A stretch of 39,811 nucleotides of DNA from a bacterium (GTDB lineage: Bacteria > JAJVIF01 > JAGGVT01), in NCBI GenBank assembly GCA_021157815.1, contig JAGGVT010000040.1, forward strand, positions 1 to 39,811. Direction: 5' to 3'. Positions within the stretch are counted from its first letter, which is position 1. Each line of letters opens with the position of its first letter. The notes under the pieces are model-generated. The model did not search any database, was not told where the DNA came from, and saw only the letters and a program-made list of their open reading frames with translations. Of this stretch, positions 55 through 36,550 are shown piece by piece. The position numbers and the translations under genes are program-made.

Positions 55-72
55 TTAATTCTCAGTAGCTGG

Positions 73-168
73 TAGCCCGGTTTCTCATTAACCGGGATAA
101 TGTGGCGCTATAAACCTCAATTTCCCGGCTAGTGAGAAGCCGGGCTGCAATACATTGAGGTTTTTCAG
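73..168. repeat. AGCCCGG-type inverted repeat, copy 1
   Basis: Arms at 74-97 and 123-146 pair with about four mismatches in 24 bases. A second pair, AAACCTCAA (112-120) and TTGAGGTTT (155-163), lies inside and outside them. The same arms recur at 28171-28302, 29001-29310 and 34485-35192. It begins 14 bases beyond the hemW stop codon, so the hairpin could also end or protect the lepA-hemW transcript; that role is inference. Confidence 0.75.
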
Positions 169-3280: not shown

Positions 3281-3691
3281 AGCCTGTCGGGAAGGTTGTT
3301 GTTATATCCCATCCCCCCCTTAATTCCCCCGCGAGCGTGGGGAAATACTTTTTCGGCGCTTCAATAAGTTGTGTGGGTTATTTACCCCCGTAAAAAAAGG
3401 GGCATTCCCCGATAACGGGGTACGTCCACATGAGGCTTCAAATCTGATGTTATCAATATACTATGCTGTAACCCCTTATTTATACTGTGTTTATTCACTT
3501 GGTTGGGACATTCCCCTTTTTTTACTCAATCCAGATTCAACCCACACGATTTATTGAAGACCCACTTTTTCATTTGCACCGATATACACGGTCTATATAC
3601 TTGCGAAGGGAAAAGGCAACATTCTCCCGCCCCGCTCGCGGGGAGGGCTGGGGTGGGGGTTTCTTGTTTGCTGTACCTTGCCCGACATGCT
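3281..3691. repeat. Second-layer inverted-repeat element inside the 3212-3710 hairpin
   Basis: AGCCTGTCGGGAAGG at 3281-3295 pairs with CCTTGCCCGACATGCT at 3676-3691, with one indel and one mismatch. This gives an insert with imperfect terminal repeats. Inside it a third GC-rich pair, CCGCGAGCG (3329-3337) and CGCTCGCGG (3633-3641), encloses the 3359-3559 element. No convincing target duplication was found. Confidence 0.5.
3359..3559. repeat. 201-base MITE-like element (CTTCAATAAR family), copy 1
   Basis: Terminal inverted repeats of 21 bases lie at 3359-3379 and 3539-3559 with two mismatches (CTTCAATAAGTTGTGTGGGTT on the left read against the right end). A second, perfect 13-base inverted repeat GTAAAAAAAGGGG / CCCCTTTTTTTAC lies inside at 3390-3402 and 3513-3525. 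Copy 2 is at 12444-12633 with the same two-layer design. No transposase is encoded, so it would be non-autonomous. Confidence 0.8.
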
Positions 3692-9282: not shown

Positions 9283-9354
9283 GCGCTTAAACGTTAACGG
9301 TGACTCTCTTTGATTTTATCATTTTTAACGGTCTGTAGGTTCAAACCTTGGAAT

Positions 9355-9563
9355 CTGTCTCAGAACCTGCGAAAACCGTCATTCCGACATTCGCGAAGCG
9401 AATGGTCGGTTCTTTAGTATGTCCTCAGAAATCCCTTTCTTCTTTTCGTTTATCAGCAATCGTGAATTTCACCGATTTTTAAAGGGATTCCGACCATCCA
9501 ACTCGCTACGCTCGTTGGATGTCGGAATGACGAGTTTCCTGCTGTTTGGAGGTTCTGAGACAG
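9355..9563. repeat. 209-base MITE-like element (CTGTCTCAGAAC family), copy 1
   Basis: Perfect 14-base terminal repeats CTGTCTCAGAACCT (9355-9368) and its complement (9550-9563). Inside, GTCATTCCGACAT (9378-9390) pairs perfectly with 9519-9531, so a REP-like hairpin is carried within it. Related ends bound 29094-29257 and 34531-35143, each with different contents. CCTTG occurs shortly outside both ends (9346-9350 and 9567-9571), a possible but uncertain target duplication. It fills the gap between the kinase and the amidase operon. Confidence 0.8.
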
Positions 9564-9645
9564 CTTCCTTGTGTTTGCCCTATATTTATCGCATCCCTCA
9601 GGGCAAACATAAGGTTTGCACCTACATATTTAGTTTTTTAAACAG
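9564..9645. repeat. Degenerate half of a GGGGCTGTT-type element
   Basis: This stretch runs parallel to the right half of the element at 34905-35035: a TTTGCCCTATATTTAT core, a GGTTTGCACCTAC part, and AACAGCCCC at its end. The matching left half (TGTAGGTTCAAACC, 9334-9347) lies on the other side of the CTGTCTCAGAAC element, so that element seems to have split an older repeat. Confidence 0.45.
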
Positions 9646-9683
9646 CCCCAGAGACTAGTTGCGAAAAACTGAAAGACTGCTGT

Positions 9684-28152: not shown

Positions 28153-28170
28153 GAATTTTGATATCCTTCT

Positions 28171-28302
28171 GAGACCTCTGAAAAAGGTTCATTTTATTGT
28201 AGCCCGGCTTCTCATTAGCCGGGAAAACACGGGTATCATTCACACATTTCCCCGGTGAATTAGAAACCGGGCTACAAGATATTTACATTTTTTTAGAGAC
28301 CT
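28171..28302. repeat. AGCCCGG-type inverted repeat, copy 2
   Basis: An uninterrupted copy. Inner arms at 28200-28225 and 28249-28276 (AGCCCGG...) pair with several mismatches, and outer arms (GAGACCTCTGAAAAA on the left, TTTTTTTAGAGACC on the right) extend the pairing to about 28171-28302. It lies inside the ORP-like gene cluster, between the zinc-ribbon gene and the first ATPase gene. Confidence 0.75.
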
Positions 28303-28312
28303 AATTTTTAAA

Positions 28313-28931: not shown

Positions 28932-29000
28932 ATTTCAGGCTCCTTGATCATTTTAATAATCTTCATAATACCACTTAAACCTGATATCCATATATAGATA

Positions 29001-29310
29001 CATCTGAAAAAATGAAATATGTTTTAGACCGGTTTCTCATTAGCTGGGAAAACATAGGTATCATTCACGCATTAACCTGGCTAATGAGGAAAGTGTCTCA
29101 TAACTCAATTATAAGCAAAAAGGTTTGTCATTCTGAGCGCAGCGAAGAATCTATTTGCTACTGTGTTGATGATTAAACCTGATGAAATTAATCTACAATA
29201 TCTAAAATAGATCCTTCGCTTCGCTCAGGATGACAGAAAAAGCCAGGTTATGAGACAGTCTCATGAGAAGCCGGGCTACAATATAATGAGTCTTTTTCAA
29301 AAGTCTCATG
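29001..29310. repeat. AGCCCGG-type inverted repeat, copy 3, interrupted
   Basis: The left arm is at about 29029-29049, with the centre and start of the right arm reaching 29088 (CTGGCTAATGAG). The right arm then resumes at 29259 (TCTCATGAGAAGCCGGGCTACA) and ends in TCTTTTTCAAAAGTCTC. The CTGTCTCA-type element at 29094-29257 lies in between. It occupies most of the gap between the divergent NifX-like and hybrid kinase genes; 28932-29000 and 29311-29476 hold the likely promoters, but no box is clear. Confidence 0.65.
29094..29257. repeat. MITE-like element (CTGTCTCAGAAC family), copy 2
   Basis: Ends TGTCTCATAAC (29094-29104) and GTTATGAGACA (29247-29257) are perfect inverted repeats. Inside is the widespread GTCATTCTGAGCG...GCGAAG type of REP hairpin (29127-29155 and 29206-29234). 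It interrupts the right arm of an AGCCCGG-type repeat. Confidence 0.7.
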
Positions 29311-33290: not shown

Positions 33291-34481
33291 ATGGAAATAC
33301 TAATCGCCGAAGATGATCCTGTATCAAGACGAGTCCTTGAAAAAACGCTCATTAAGTGGGGATATAATGTTCTCGTTACTGAGGATGGCGATCAGGCATG
33401 GGATGCGCTTAAAGATGGCAGTGGACCAAGCTTTGCCGTTCTGGATTGGATGATGCCTGGTATTGATGGCACGGAAGTATGCAGAAGAATCAGAAATTTA
33501 AAACAAAAGAGTTATACATACGTTATCCTTCTGACTGCAAAAGATAAGCAGTCTGATATTATCAAAGGTTTGGAAGCCGGAGCTGACGATTATGTTATCA
33601 AACCTTTCAACAGTGACGAGCTGAAATCAAGATTGCAGGTAGGAAAAAGAATTATCAATCTTGAAGAAAATCTGGCTTCCAAGATCACGGAAATACAACT
33701 TGCGAATGATGTTCTTATAGACGACCTTAAAGCAGCAGCGCTGATTCAACATAACCTGCTTCCAGACAAACTGCCAAACAACTCACGCCTTAATATCGAT
33801 TTCAGATTCGTTCCCTGTGATGCGGTCGGCGGGGATATGCTGGACGTTTTTGAAATCTGCGACAACCATATAGGCATATCCATTAGCGATGTCGCGGGAC
33901 ATGGTGTTTCTGCCGCCATGTTCGCCGTAACCATTAACAGATTGCTTTCCCCAGTTGCAGGACATACCTCAGTAGTCAGATCGAAAAAGAATAACGGTGC
34001 TTTTAATCCCGTTTCTCCAGATGAAGTATTGTCAATGTTGAACAATCAATTCCATGTTAAATCGCAAAATGCAGTTTACGCCACAATGATTTACGGAATG
34101 ATAAACACAGATACTCTCGAATTCACACATGTCAGGGCAGGACACAAGCCTGTTATCCTGGTAAGGAGTAATGATGCCAGTGAATTGGAATCCAGAGGCG
34201 GTCTGCCTATCGGAATTAGCAAGGATGTTGAATATTTTCAAACATCATTCCAGCTGGAAAAGGGAGATCGTTTGTACTTCTACACTGATGGCGCAATTGA
34301 AACAGACAAATTCACAGACCCAAGAAAGGATATTGAGAACTTCCTGAAGTTCATTCAGGAAATATCCTCTCTACCACTGTCTGAAAGCCTCGATAGAATT
34401 AATGAAATGGTTATTAGCAATGCTGAAAACCGCTCCCCGCACGATGATGTTGCTATTCTGGGTATTGAGATAAAAGAATAA
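33291..34481 (+). CDS. Response regulator with PP2C-type (RsbU/SpoIIE) phosphatase output
   Basis: A 396-residue soluble protein. The receiver domain (1-120) has EDD at 7-9, phospho-acceptor D52 in VLDWMMPG and KPFN. A short coiled coil leads to a PP2C-like phosphatase domain (about 170-395) with the metal-binding GGDMLDVF and SISDVAGHGVSAAMFAV and the late PHDDVAILGIEI. Such proteins dephosphorylate anti-sigma-factor antagonists in partner-switching systems. No anti-sigma or antagonist gene is in the window, so the target is unknown. It is co-transcribed with the hybrid kinase, which probably controls it. Confidence 0.94.
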   Translation: MEILIAEDDPVSRRVLEKTLIKWGYNVLVTEDGDQAWDALKDGSGPSFAVLDWMMPGIDGTEVCRRIRNLKQKSYTYVILLTAKDKQSDIIKGLEAGADDYVIKPFNSDELKSRLQVGKRIINLEENLASKITEIQLANDVLIDDLKAAALIQHNLLPDKLPNNSRLNIDFRFVPCDAVGGDMLDVFEICDNHIGISISDVAGHGVSAAMFAVTINRLLSPVAGHTSVVRSKKNNGAFNPVSPDEVLSMLNNQFHVKSQNAVYATMIYGMINTDTLEFTHVRAGHKPVILVRSNDASELESRGGLPIGISKDVEYFQTSFQLEKGDRLYFYTDGAIETDKFTDPRKDIENFLKFIQEISSLPLSESLDRINEMVISNAENRSPHDDVAILGIEIKE

Positions 34482-34613
34482 TGTGAGATCTCTGAAAAAG
34501 GGAAAAATGGCAGCCCGGTTTCTCATGAGACTGTCTCAGAACCAATAAATATCTAGTAAATATCCTGTGAATATCTAATAATTTTGAGGTGTGTTTTGTG
34601 CTGCGGGCATCCT

Positions 34614-34899
34614 CTCGACTTTCGACATTTAAGGCTACCTAAATACTATTAAACCGGGTTCCGCCCATACAGCCGTCCCGGCTTTATGGGTGTTTGCAGC
34701 GAGTTTACGCATTTCACCCACAAATCACAAAAAGACGTGATTTGTGGGCGGCACCCGAGGTTTATAAATTGGATCTCTTGTTGTTTTACTACACTCAAAT
34801 AAAAACACAGCCGAATTTAAAGTCGCTTCTTTTCCAATGAACGTACCATATTGCCCAGAGCCACAAAATACAGAAAGTAAATAAATGTCGAAAGTCGAG
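34614..34899. repeat. 286-base element with CTCGACTTTCGACATTT ends, fourth layer
   Basis: The 17-base ends (34614-34630 and 34883-34899) are perfect inverted repeats. The element is flanked by ATCCT at 34609-34613 and 34900-34904, a 5-base target duplication. Inside, CCCACAAATCAC / GTGATTTGTGGG (34717-34728 and 34737-34748) forms a perfect 12-base stem, and a GGGTTCCGCCCA pair (34656-34667 and 34745-34756) a near-perfect one. No open reading frame of transposase type is present. Confidence 0.8.
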
Positions 34900-34904
34900 A
34901 TCCT

Positions 34905-35035
34905 GGGGCTGTTGAAGAAGCTTGTTTTGTCACAGACCGTAGGGGCAACTCTCCGTGGTTGCCCTGTATTTATGCCAATATTTAGGGTAGGCACAGAGAC
35001 CTACCCCCTACATTCAGCGCTTTTTCAACAGCCCC
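34905..35035. repeat. 131-base element with GGGGCTGTTGAA ends, fourth layer
   Basis: Ends at 34905-34921 and 35019-35035 pair over 17 bases with one mismatch. ATCCT flanks it at 34900-34904 and 35036-35040, sharing one duplication with the neighbour. It contains two hairpins, GGGCAAC / GTTGCCC and GGTAGG / CCTACC, of a kind that is widespread in bacterial genomes. The stretch 9564-9645 looks like a decayed half of the same family. Confidence 0.8.
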
Positions 35036-35236
35036 ATCCTGCCTGCATCTTTTCAAATCTTAAGTTAAATTAAAAAATGCAGGCAGGATGCCCGCAGCAC
35101 AAAATTACTGGTTATTTGCACATTTCAATTAGTTCTGAGATAGCCTCATGAGAAGCCGGGCTACAATAAAATGTGTCTTTTTCAGAGGTTGCGATATATT
35201 CATCTCTGTACGCGACTGAACCGGTTTCTGAACCAA

Positions 35237-36550
35237 TCACGATTCCTCTTTGAGAACCTCTCTTAGGTTTATATCAGTCGCCAGACGTTTGAATAATCGG
35301 CCGGCTTCCGCTCTATCCTGCCAGTCAACGAAAACGGAAATATCAGACTGGTTTGTTATCACTTCGATAACCCTTATCCCGCGTTCCAGAAGTATTTCGC
35401 AAATTTCAGAAATCATCTCCGGGTTTTCAGCGTTATCGCGGCTTGACAGATTCAGCCTGGCGATTCCCCTGCGTTGAATCACGTTTTTAACGTACGGCTT
35501 GTTCTGCACCAATTTATTCAAACTTGAGAAGAACTCATCGACACCATCATCCGTAATATAAAACCCGATGAAACTTTCCGTGAATGACAATCCGAACAAT
35601 GACGCCTTAATGCTTCCAATCAGTTTTCCCAGTTCAGCCCATAGTGATTGATGAAGGCTTAAATCCTCTCCGACAACTGTAATCAAAGCAAGTTTTTTTC
35701 TTATGCCTTTCAGGCGGGCTTTGTAGAATCCGACTATCTCAGTGCCGCCTTCATCGAAATCAGTTTCCTCGAAATGCACGATTCGCGCTTTCATGCGGTC
35801 CGTTTTATATGCCAGCGATTGCGGATGAAGCACCTGCCCTCCTGAACGTGTAACGGAATCTATTTCATCTATTGAAATGTAGTTAACATGCTCCGTTGTC
35901 TCAATAAGAGCGGGATCAGCTTTCATGACTCCCTGAACATCGGTAACTATTACAACCTCGTTGGCTTCAAGAAGTTTTGCCAGAAGAAACGCGGATGTGT
36001 CGCTCCCGCCACGTCCAAGAGTTAGAAGTTCGCCGTCTTTTGAAAGAGCCAGGAATCCGGAAACAACAGGTATTACGCCTTTTTTTAGCAGTTGTTTAAT
36101 TCCTTCGTTCACATGGGCTTTCGACATTTCCTCCATGATTTCAACATCGACATTCTGGTTTATTTTCTCACGCGCAAGTTTTACATGCTGACCGCCCTTG
36201 GCATATATAGGCCATCTTTCAGAGTACGGGGTGATAGCCTCAGCTTGTACGCCCAACGATCTTAGCGCGGTTGTGAATATACGAGCGCTAAGATTTTCGC
36301 CGTAGGAAACAATCTCAGCCAATTCAGATGATAAACAATCCCCGCCTGAAACCTCATCAGCAAGCCGAATCAGCCTGTTTGTATCATTTCCCATAGCGCT
36401 TACAACCACAAGAGTTGGACGCAATTCATGAAATTCGAGCGTTTTCTTTGCCAGATTGCGAACTCTTGCCGGATTGGATAACGATTTCCCGCCAAATTTA
36501 ATAACAAGGATGTCATCCAGTTCACGGATATTTTTATTCTTTTTTGCCAT
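35237..36550 (-). CDS. lysC: Aspartate kinase with C-terminal ACT domains
   Basis: Phosphorylates aspartate at the head of the lysine, threonine and methionine pathway. 437 residues. The catalytic domain has VIKFGGKSL (KFGGTS variant), VVSAMGN and LGRGGSDTSAF. The C-terminal part (about 285-435) holds two ACT-like regulatory domains (RRGIARLNLSSRD, then ERGIRVIEVITNQSDISVFVDW), which usually bind lysine or threonine. The repeat KS in place of TS in the first motif is unusual but conservative. It is the last gene of the group with kdsD, 74 bases after it. Confidence 0.95.
   Translation of the reverse strand: MAKKNKNIRELDDILVIKFGGKSLSNPARVRNLAKKTLEFHELRPTLVVVSAMGNDTNRLIRLADEVSGGDCLSSELAEIVSYGENLSARIFTTALRSLGVQAEAITPYSERWPIYAKGGQHVKLAREKINQNVDVEIMEEMSKAHVNEGIKQLLKKGVIPVVSGFLALSKDGELLTLGRGGSDTSAFLLAKLLEANEVVIVTDVQGVMKADPALIETTEHVNYISIDEIDSVTRSGGQVLHPQSLAYKTDRMKARIVHFEETDFDEGGTEIVGFYKARLKGIRKKLALITVVGEDLSLHQSLWAELGKLIGSIKASLFGLSFTESFIGFYITDDGVDEFFSSLNKLVQNKPYVKNVIQRRGIARLNLSSRDNAENPEMISEICEILLERGIRVIEVITNQSDISVFVDWQDRAEAGRLFKRLATDINLREVLKEES

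Follow-up and report, generated by a model that had tools for sequence, protein, structure and literature searches.

The stretch of DNA analyzed in this study, hereafter called the window, corresponds to contig C146 (39,811 nucleotides) of a 3.2-Mb bacterial genome that is assembled in 221 contigs and is 90.9% complete. Two convergent reading frames in the window, at 33291-34481 on the plus strand and 35237-36550 on the minus strand, flank a stack of palindromic elements (table 1) in which element A encloses element D, D encloses a hairpin abbreviated as hp, and elements C and G lie within the left arm of hp. Inverted repeats underlie this arrangement, namely layer I1 (34507-34546/35128-35167, 40 nt, 85% identity), I2 (34594-34613/35085-35104, 20 nt, 100%), I3 (34613-34631/34882-34900, 19 nt, 100%) and I5 (34904-34921/35019-35036, 18 nt, 94%), and the region 34470-35210 folds as DNA with a z score of -15 with respect to dinucleotide shuffles. 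The fold z scores of G and of the empty hp found in contig C61 (stretch L006:1303-1386) are -5.3 and -13.2, respectively. All the inverted-repeat layers reported in an earlier, sequence-only reading are thus present where that reading placed them. Its outermost ends, given as of AGCCCGG type, have to be moved outward, since the pair GAGATCTCTGAAAAA / TTTTTCAGAGGTTGC at 34485-34499 / 35178-35192, forming the ends of element A, lies outside AGCCCGG. The four-level nesting that it proposed holds for the outer layers, which do enclose the inner ones, but not for the two innermost elements, which are adjacent to each other and individually bounded by ATCCT.

Table 1. Features of the stack of elements in the window, from the outermost inward
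Feature	Position	Strand	Evidence or remark
Element A, outermost MITE, ends GAGATCTCTGAAAAA / TTTTTCAGAGGTTGC	34485..35192	.	GTAG-type REP dimer (REPIN) forms the core
Left REP arm of A, GCAGCCCGGTTTCTCAT	34510..34526	+	sequence, genome-wide arm matches
Right REP arm of A, ATGAGAAGCCGGGCTAC on the plus strand	35148..35164	-	sequence, genome-wide arm matches
Element D, subfamily D1, ends GAGACTGTCTCAGAACC / GGTTCTGAGATAGCCTC	34527..35147	.	inserted at A's hairpin loop, flanked by CTCAT / ATGAG
Hairpin hp, left part, TTTTGTGCTGCGGGCATCCT	34594..34613	+	inverted repeat; arm matches; empty hp at C61
Hairpin hp, rest, GCCTGCATC...GGATGCCCGCAGCACAAAA	35041..35104	+	sequence; inverted repeat; arm matches
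ATCCT, first copy of target duplication	34609..34613	+	TCC loop and one closing pair in GGCA-TCC-TGCC
Element C, 286 bp, ends CTCGACTTTCGACATTT	34614..34899	.	full-length copies of 98% and 89% identity at C14 and C27
ATCCT, middle copy, common to C and G	34900..34904	+	sequence
Element G, 131-bp MITE, IS1182-type ends GGGGCTGTTGAA	34905..35035	.	core is a GTAG-type REP dimer
ATCCT, last copy of target duplication	35036..35040	+	sequence

The layers of the stack are not a product of chance, because their end sequences recur in the genome far above the frequency of the reversed patterns that we used as controls: 242 matches versus 12 for the G end, 37 versus 0 for the D end, 20 versus 2 for the C end, 80 versus 0 for the arm of hp and 109 versus 0 for the arm of A. 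Many contigs (C3, C4, C7, C61, C103, C208 and others) begin or finish within these repeats, which therefore appear to break the assembly, so that their real copy numbers probably exceed those counted here. Elements G, D and C have the properties of MITEs, being shorter than 500 bp, bounded by terminal inverted repeats, devoid of coding capacity and dispersed in many copies. None of three genomes of the same class has the stack; in one of them, G003, the match was limited to a small part of a gene beside it.

Copies elsewhere in the genome separate the layers from one another. Outer elements lacking the inner ones, which the sequence-only reading had proposed as support for serial insertion, are found as A alone (in C43 and, intact and empty, at 28168-28305 of the window), as A with D, as A with D and an empty hp, and as hp alone. 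The arrangement in contig C175, where A contains a D1 element with an empty hp and D1 is flanked by an ATGAG duplication in the right hairpin of A, is that of the precursor of the window stack. Precise empty sites, also anticipated in that reading, exist for hp, the arms of which are 61 bp apart when empty (in C61 and about ten other places) and 488 bp apart in the stack. This distance equals 61+(286+5)+(131+5) exactly and therefore indicates that a 5-bp duplication, ATCCT, accompanied each of the two insertions, C and G. The same hairpin has received different insertions in its loop (elements G131, G190, G211 and C): it contains G in the opposite orientation within the A, D1 and hp series of C156, G in the other arm with duplication ATGAT in C91, an insertion with duplication AGGAT/ATCCT in C142, a different G-type element of 190 bp at the same ATCCT in C43 and an inverted C in C14. 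G is consequently not confined to one orientation or to one arm of hp. As to C, it is flanked by ATCCT in the window and has ragged flanks in its other copies.

Nesting also occurs in the reverse direction, with A lying inside D1 in C64 (duplication CATCTAG) and with G-type elements harbouring D in their REP hairpin in C43, C27 and C85 (stretches L035, L072 and L111). Within the window itself, a decayed G-type element has its hairpin occupied by a D-type element at about 9337-9650 (duplication CTTG; the right end of the decayed element, TTTAAACAGCCCC, is at about 9637-9649), and at about 29000-29310 the right hairpin of a copy of A holds an element of the D2 subfamily, which has a TCATTCTGAGCG hairpin core and is flanked by an ATGAG duplication. 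That every layer is found apart, and that nesting runs in both directions, leads to the conclusion that the stack arose by serial insertion and that its layers are independent mobile elements. One could argue that the stack is a single complex repeat which spreads as a unit and is nested in appearance only, since the same order of A, D, hp and inner element recurs at several loci (C156, C14 and the window). However, single layers, empty copies of both hp and A, reversed nesting, varied insertions in one hairpin loop and insertions in both orientations leave this possibility with a negligible probability, and the outcome regarded beforehand as fatal to serial insertion, namely that all layers always occur together, is excluded by the separate copies within this very genome; we have thus discarded the composite unit on account of the free copies and those with reversed nesting.

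A further level of nesting was observed in contig C169 (17200-20700, stretch L040), where another MITE, bearing GGCTCTTCAATAAAT ends and flanked by an 8-bp duplication (AAATAAAA), interrupts the C element at 1516-2002 of the stretch. The ends of this interrupting element resemble paired CAATAARTYGTGTGGGT-type ends lying about 180 bp apart at 3362-3556 of the window, which may be ISL3-like.

The outer part of the stack is less tidy than the inner part. The intact form of A, a REPIN, has two hairpins, the arms being 60 bp apart and in inverted order, and its core shows the features of GTAG REPs, that is a GTAG tag beside a hairpin, two inverted units and high copy number; the core of G shows them too, as read from its sequence and fold. 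In comparison with the intact copies of the window (72-148 and 28199-28275), the A of the stack misses about 48 bp between its two hairpin loops, and therefore either the insertion of D was not clean here or recombination followed it. The earlier statement that removal of the inner elements restores the outer palindrome is hence exact for hp once C and G are taken out, but does not extend to A, which is not intact once D is removed; likewise, the insertion of D in A does not leave a clean empty site, the centre of A being absent. The order of insertion can indeed be read from the nesting of the layers, except for that of C versus G, because these elements sit side by side.

Whether hp constitutes a nesting level of its own, as originally claimed, depends on its relationship with D1. 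It is present in all copies of the D1 subfamily with readable ends, so that, instead of having inserted separately, it may be part, or the core, of D1. The other possibility is that D received hp as a REP-like element in its own right, which would make four true levels of insertion. Such a possibility agrees with the presence of hp alone at about ten sites, with the different hairpins that occupy its place in other D subfamilies and with the nine Y1_Tnp genes of the genome (L191 in C65, L192 in C216, L193 in C189 and six further places), which are candidate REP-associated tyrosine transposases (RAYTs); the one that we checked scores 73.9 bits with the REP_Tyr_transpos model, the cut-off of which is 80. 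Yet D1 without hp was not found among the copies with readable ends and no duplication marks the boundary of hp, which makes its independent insertion rather doubtful.

It had also been noted that no transposase is present. This is true of the stack, but a source of the G ends of IS1182 type was found elsewhere. Scanning the contigs of our genome collection for the junction between hp and G returned 23 hits, of which a single one, L091 from Hydrogenedentota NORP43, has a correctly spaced inverted end beside the junction; the other 22 look like chance matches and were set aside. The NORP43 genome, which serves as an independent replicate, contains 54 copies of the end versus 1 of its control, MITEs of 102-354 bp and an IS of 1593 bp that has GGGGCTGTTGAAAAAG ends as here and an open transposase frame of 505 codons, scoring 351.6 bits with the NCBIfam IS1182 model (NF033551, cut-off 270). 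G-type elements are thus MITEs of an IS1182-family IS, because they share their ends with an IS encoding such a transposase. The target of the NORP43 elements has the form CATGGGC-NNNNN-GCCCATG, and of 15 elements seven show a duplication, all of them with a stem of 7 bp or more and a loop of 3 nt. Two full-length IS1182-type copies in NORP43 (L175 and L176) have at least 508 bp of right flank in common and different left flanks, which suggests recombination or an assembly join; this pair may not represent two independent insertions.

In the genome of the window, decayed proteins with DUF772 and DDE_Tnp_1 domains adjoin G ends in contigs C90 and C56. They are fragments which have IS1182 as their best matching model, score under its cut-off and are 34-49% identical to the transposase of the NORP43 IS. 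In the assembly, which is 90.9% complete, we encountered no intact transposase of G type, and the copies retrieved included neither an autonomous source for C and D nor a full-length element with the ends of D, C or A. The intact IS1182/IS5-like transposase of contig C155 has different ends (GGTACCGTTGCAAAA) and thus does not suggest itself as the source of G.

The target sites of these elements show a common geometry. We examined 53 complete G-type elements and 28 copies of D, considering duplications of at least 4 bp. Such duplications flank 35 of the 53 G-type elements (13% with swapped flanks), and are centred on a stem of at least 5 bp in 27 of the 35 cases (8.1% for random sites), of at least 7 bp in 23 (1.04%) and of at least 8 bp in 17 (0.4%). 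The loops have mostly 3 or 4 nt and belong to at least six unrelated stem-loop sequences, for instance CCCGC-GAAA-GCGGG, GGCA-TCC-TGCC, CGCAG-TAGC-CTGCG, GGACA-GCCT-TGTCC and CATGC-TTTA-GCATG. Typically, the loop and roughly one closing pair are duplicated, the exact length being somewhat ambiguous because the element ends in G/C; at GAAA/TTTC targets, where in addition the stem closes with a C-G pair, the apparent 4-bp duplication can therefore be read also as one of 6 bp. Element D mostly behaves in the same way, if less cleanly, with duplications in 14 of 28 copies and a stem of at least 6 bp in eight of these 14 (2.5% for random sites).

Two target repeats, hp and one that is CGTC-like, have received many of the G insertions, and sequence preference is therefore not fully separated from structure preference; the insertions that share a target repeat are at separate loci and in both orientations, and some units of hairpin plus G may have been co-amplified. 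Given that these two families take most of the G insertions, short motifs such as ATCCT, GAAAG, CTCAT and CAAG might be the true targets and lie in REP hairpins by coincidence, with structure being irrelevant. We consider this unlikely, for the elements always sit at the loop, whereas the duplicated loops themselves vary (TCC, GAAA, TAGC, GCCT, TTTA and TAA in the genome of the window, TCT/AGA in NORP43).

A clean duplication is lacking in 18 of the 53 G-type elements and in 14 of the 28 copies of D. Several of these copies have inverted flanks, including the D of the window stack (CTCAT/ATGAG), and a few others have chimeric flanks (L002, L019, L102 and L107), so that recombination or stem-loop replacement must act as well. 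Replacement of the kind known for IS1272 (PMC5678879, PMC4923244), with one transposase operating in both modes, could have produced the inverted flanks: in seven of the 18 G copies without duplication the flanks pair over 8 to 18 bp, as if the element had replaced an inner stem-loop. On the other hand, the chimeric flanks suggest that recombination between copies does occur, and if insertions in the two arms of a hairpin recombined, the outcome would look identical; we thus regard replacement as a serious contender with slightly less than an even chance of being correct.

Taken together, these results make it highly probable that non-autonomous mobile elements, inserting one after another into small DNA stem-loops, gave rise to the stack. 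The process would have begun when A, a MITE whose REPIN consists of a pair of inverted GTAG-tagged hairpins, landed between the two convergent genes. D1 would then have entered the loop of one REP hairpin of A, the centre of which was lost in the window copy, and may have brought the perfect hairpin hp with it. Finally, C and G would each have entered the mini-hairpin GGCA-TCC-TGCC in the left arm of hp, each duplicating ATCCT. We infer that an IS1182-family DDE transposase recognises the ends of G in trans, and presumably those of related families, reading the structure rather than the sequence of its target; it would cleave the two strands where the target loop meets its stem, and gap repair would copy the loop. 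As A, D and G carry REP-like hairpins of their own, every insertion would supply new landing sites, and recursive nesting is therefore likely. The broader idea of a self-reinforcing system of landing sites, which would combine shape-reading MITEs of IS1182 type, loop duplication, REPIN cargo and recursive nesting with feedback, is offered more tentatively, and we would not yet bet on it.

If palindromes are both cargo and target, as suggested here, this may explain why some bacterial genomes pile up short palindromes, and such piles keep a readable order of insertion. Among known systems, the elements are akin to IS1272 and TnSha1 of the IS1182 family, with which they have in common a transposase of this family, stem-loop targets of unrelated sequence and repeated hits in one hairpin. 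IS1272 targets unrelated stem-loops and removes them without duplication (PMC5678879; PMC4923244), whereas in most of the copies here whose flanks are readable the stem-loop is retained and its loop duplicated, and most elements are MITEs of 128-453 bp. Deletion of the stem-loop without duplication does not apply to most G copies, even if the minority with inverted flanks could derive from replacement. Palindrome targeting in the IS1182 family has been described (Siguier et al. 2015, as cited by PMC4923244), and a loop-duplicating outcome for IS1272 has been drawn only as alternative 'c' of a model (fig. 13 of PMC5678879). Shape-guided transposition has thus been argued for an element that destroys its target, while some forty insertions in two genomes have now their loop duplicated and their stem mostly kept, rendering the proposed mode of loop attack directly testable.

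The hairpins themselves are familiar too. REP hairpins are known targets of ISs, as exemplified by ISPsy8, which inserts at the hairpin axis with a 3-bp duplication (PMC1525189). Our elements similarly strike REP-like hairpins at their axis with a short duplication, but in the published cases the insertions were of autonomous ISs of the IS3, IS110, IS4, IS256 and IS5 families tied to the REPs of the host species, whereas here several MITE families nest in one another's hairpins. The cores of A and G, inverted dimers of GTAG plus hairpin in a genome with nine Y1_Tnp genes, recall REPINs and RAYTs (PMC3733652, PMC3116915) and fit the GTAG superfamily of REPs (PMC3733652), with the difference that the REP dimers lie within MITEs having separate terminal inverted repeats. 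The target CGTCATTCCCGCGAAAGCGGGAATCCA bears the tag of CGTC-tagged REPs, and the CGTCATTCCCGCG repeat fits the CGTC superfamily, assigned by its tag, stem and loop as described in PMC3733652. The bacterial MITEs Chunjie and QMITE2, reviewed in PMC10969869, resemble our elements in being short, devoid of transposase, bounded by terminal inverted repeats, flanked by target duplications and mostly intergenic; the closest parallel in that review, in which the words 'nested' and 'hairpin' do not appear, is the insertion of IS1111 into the REP portion of QMITE2. With respect to these systems, of which we have covered the literature in part so that novelty is not proven, the variant presented here is loop duplication together with MITEs carrying hairpins that become targets. 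Its main interest resides in the large natural sample of loop-duplicating insertions and in the recursive arrangement whereby the cargo equals the target.
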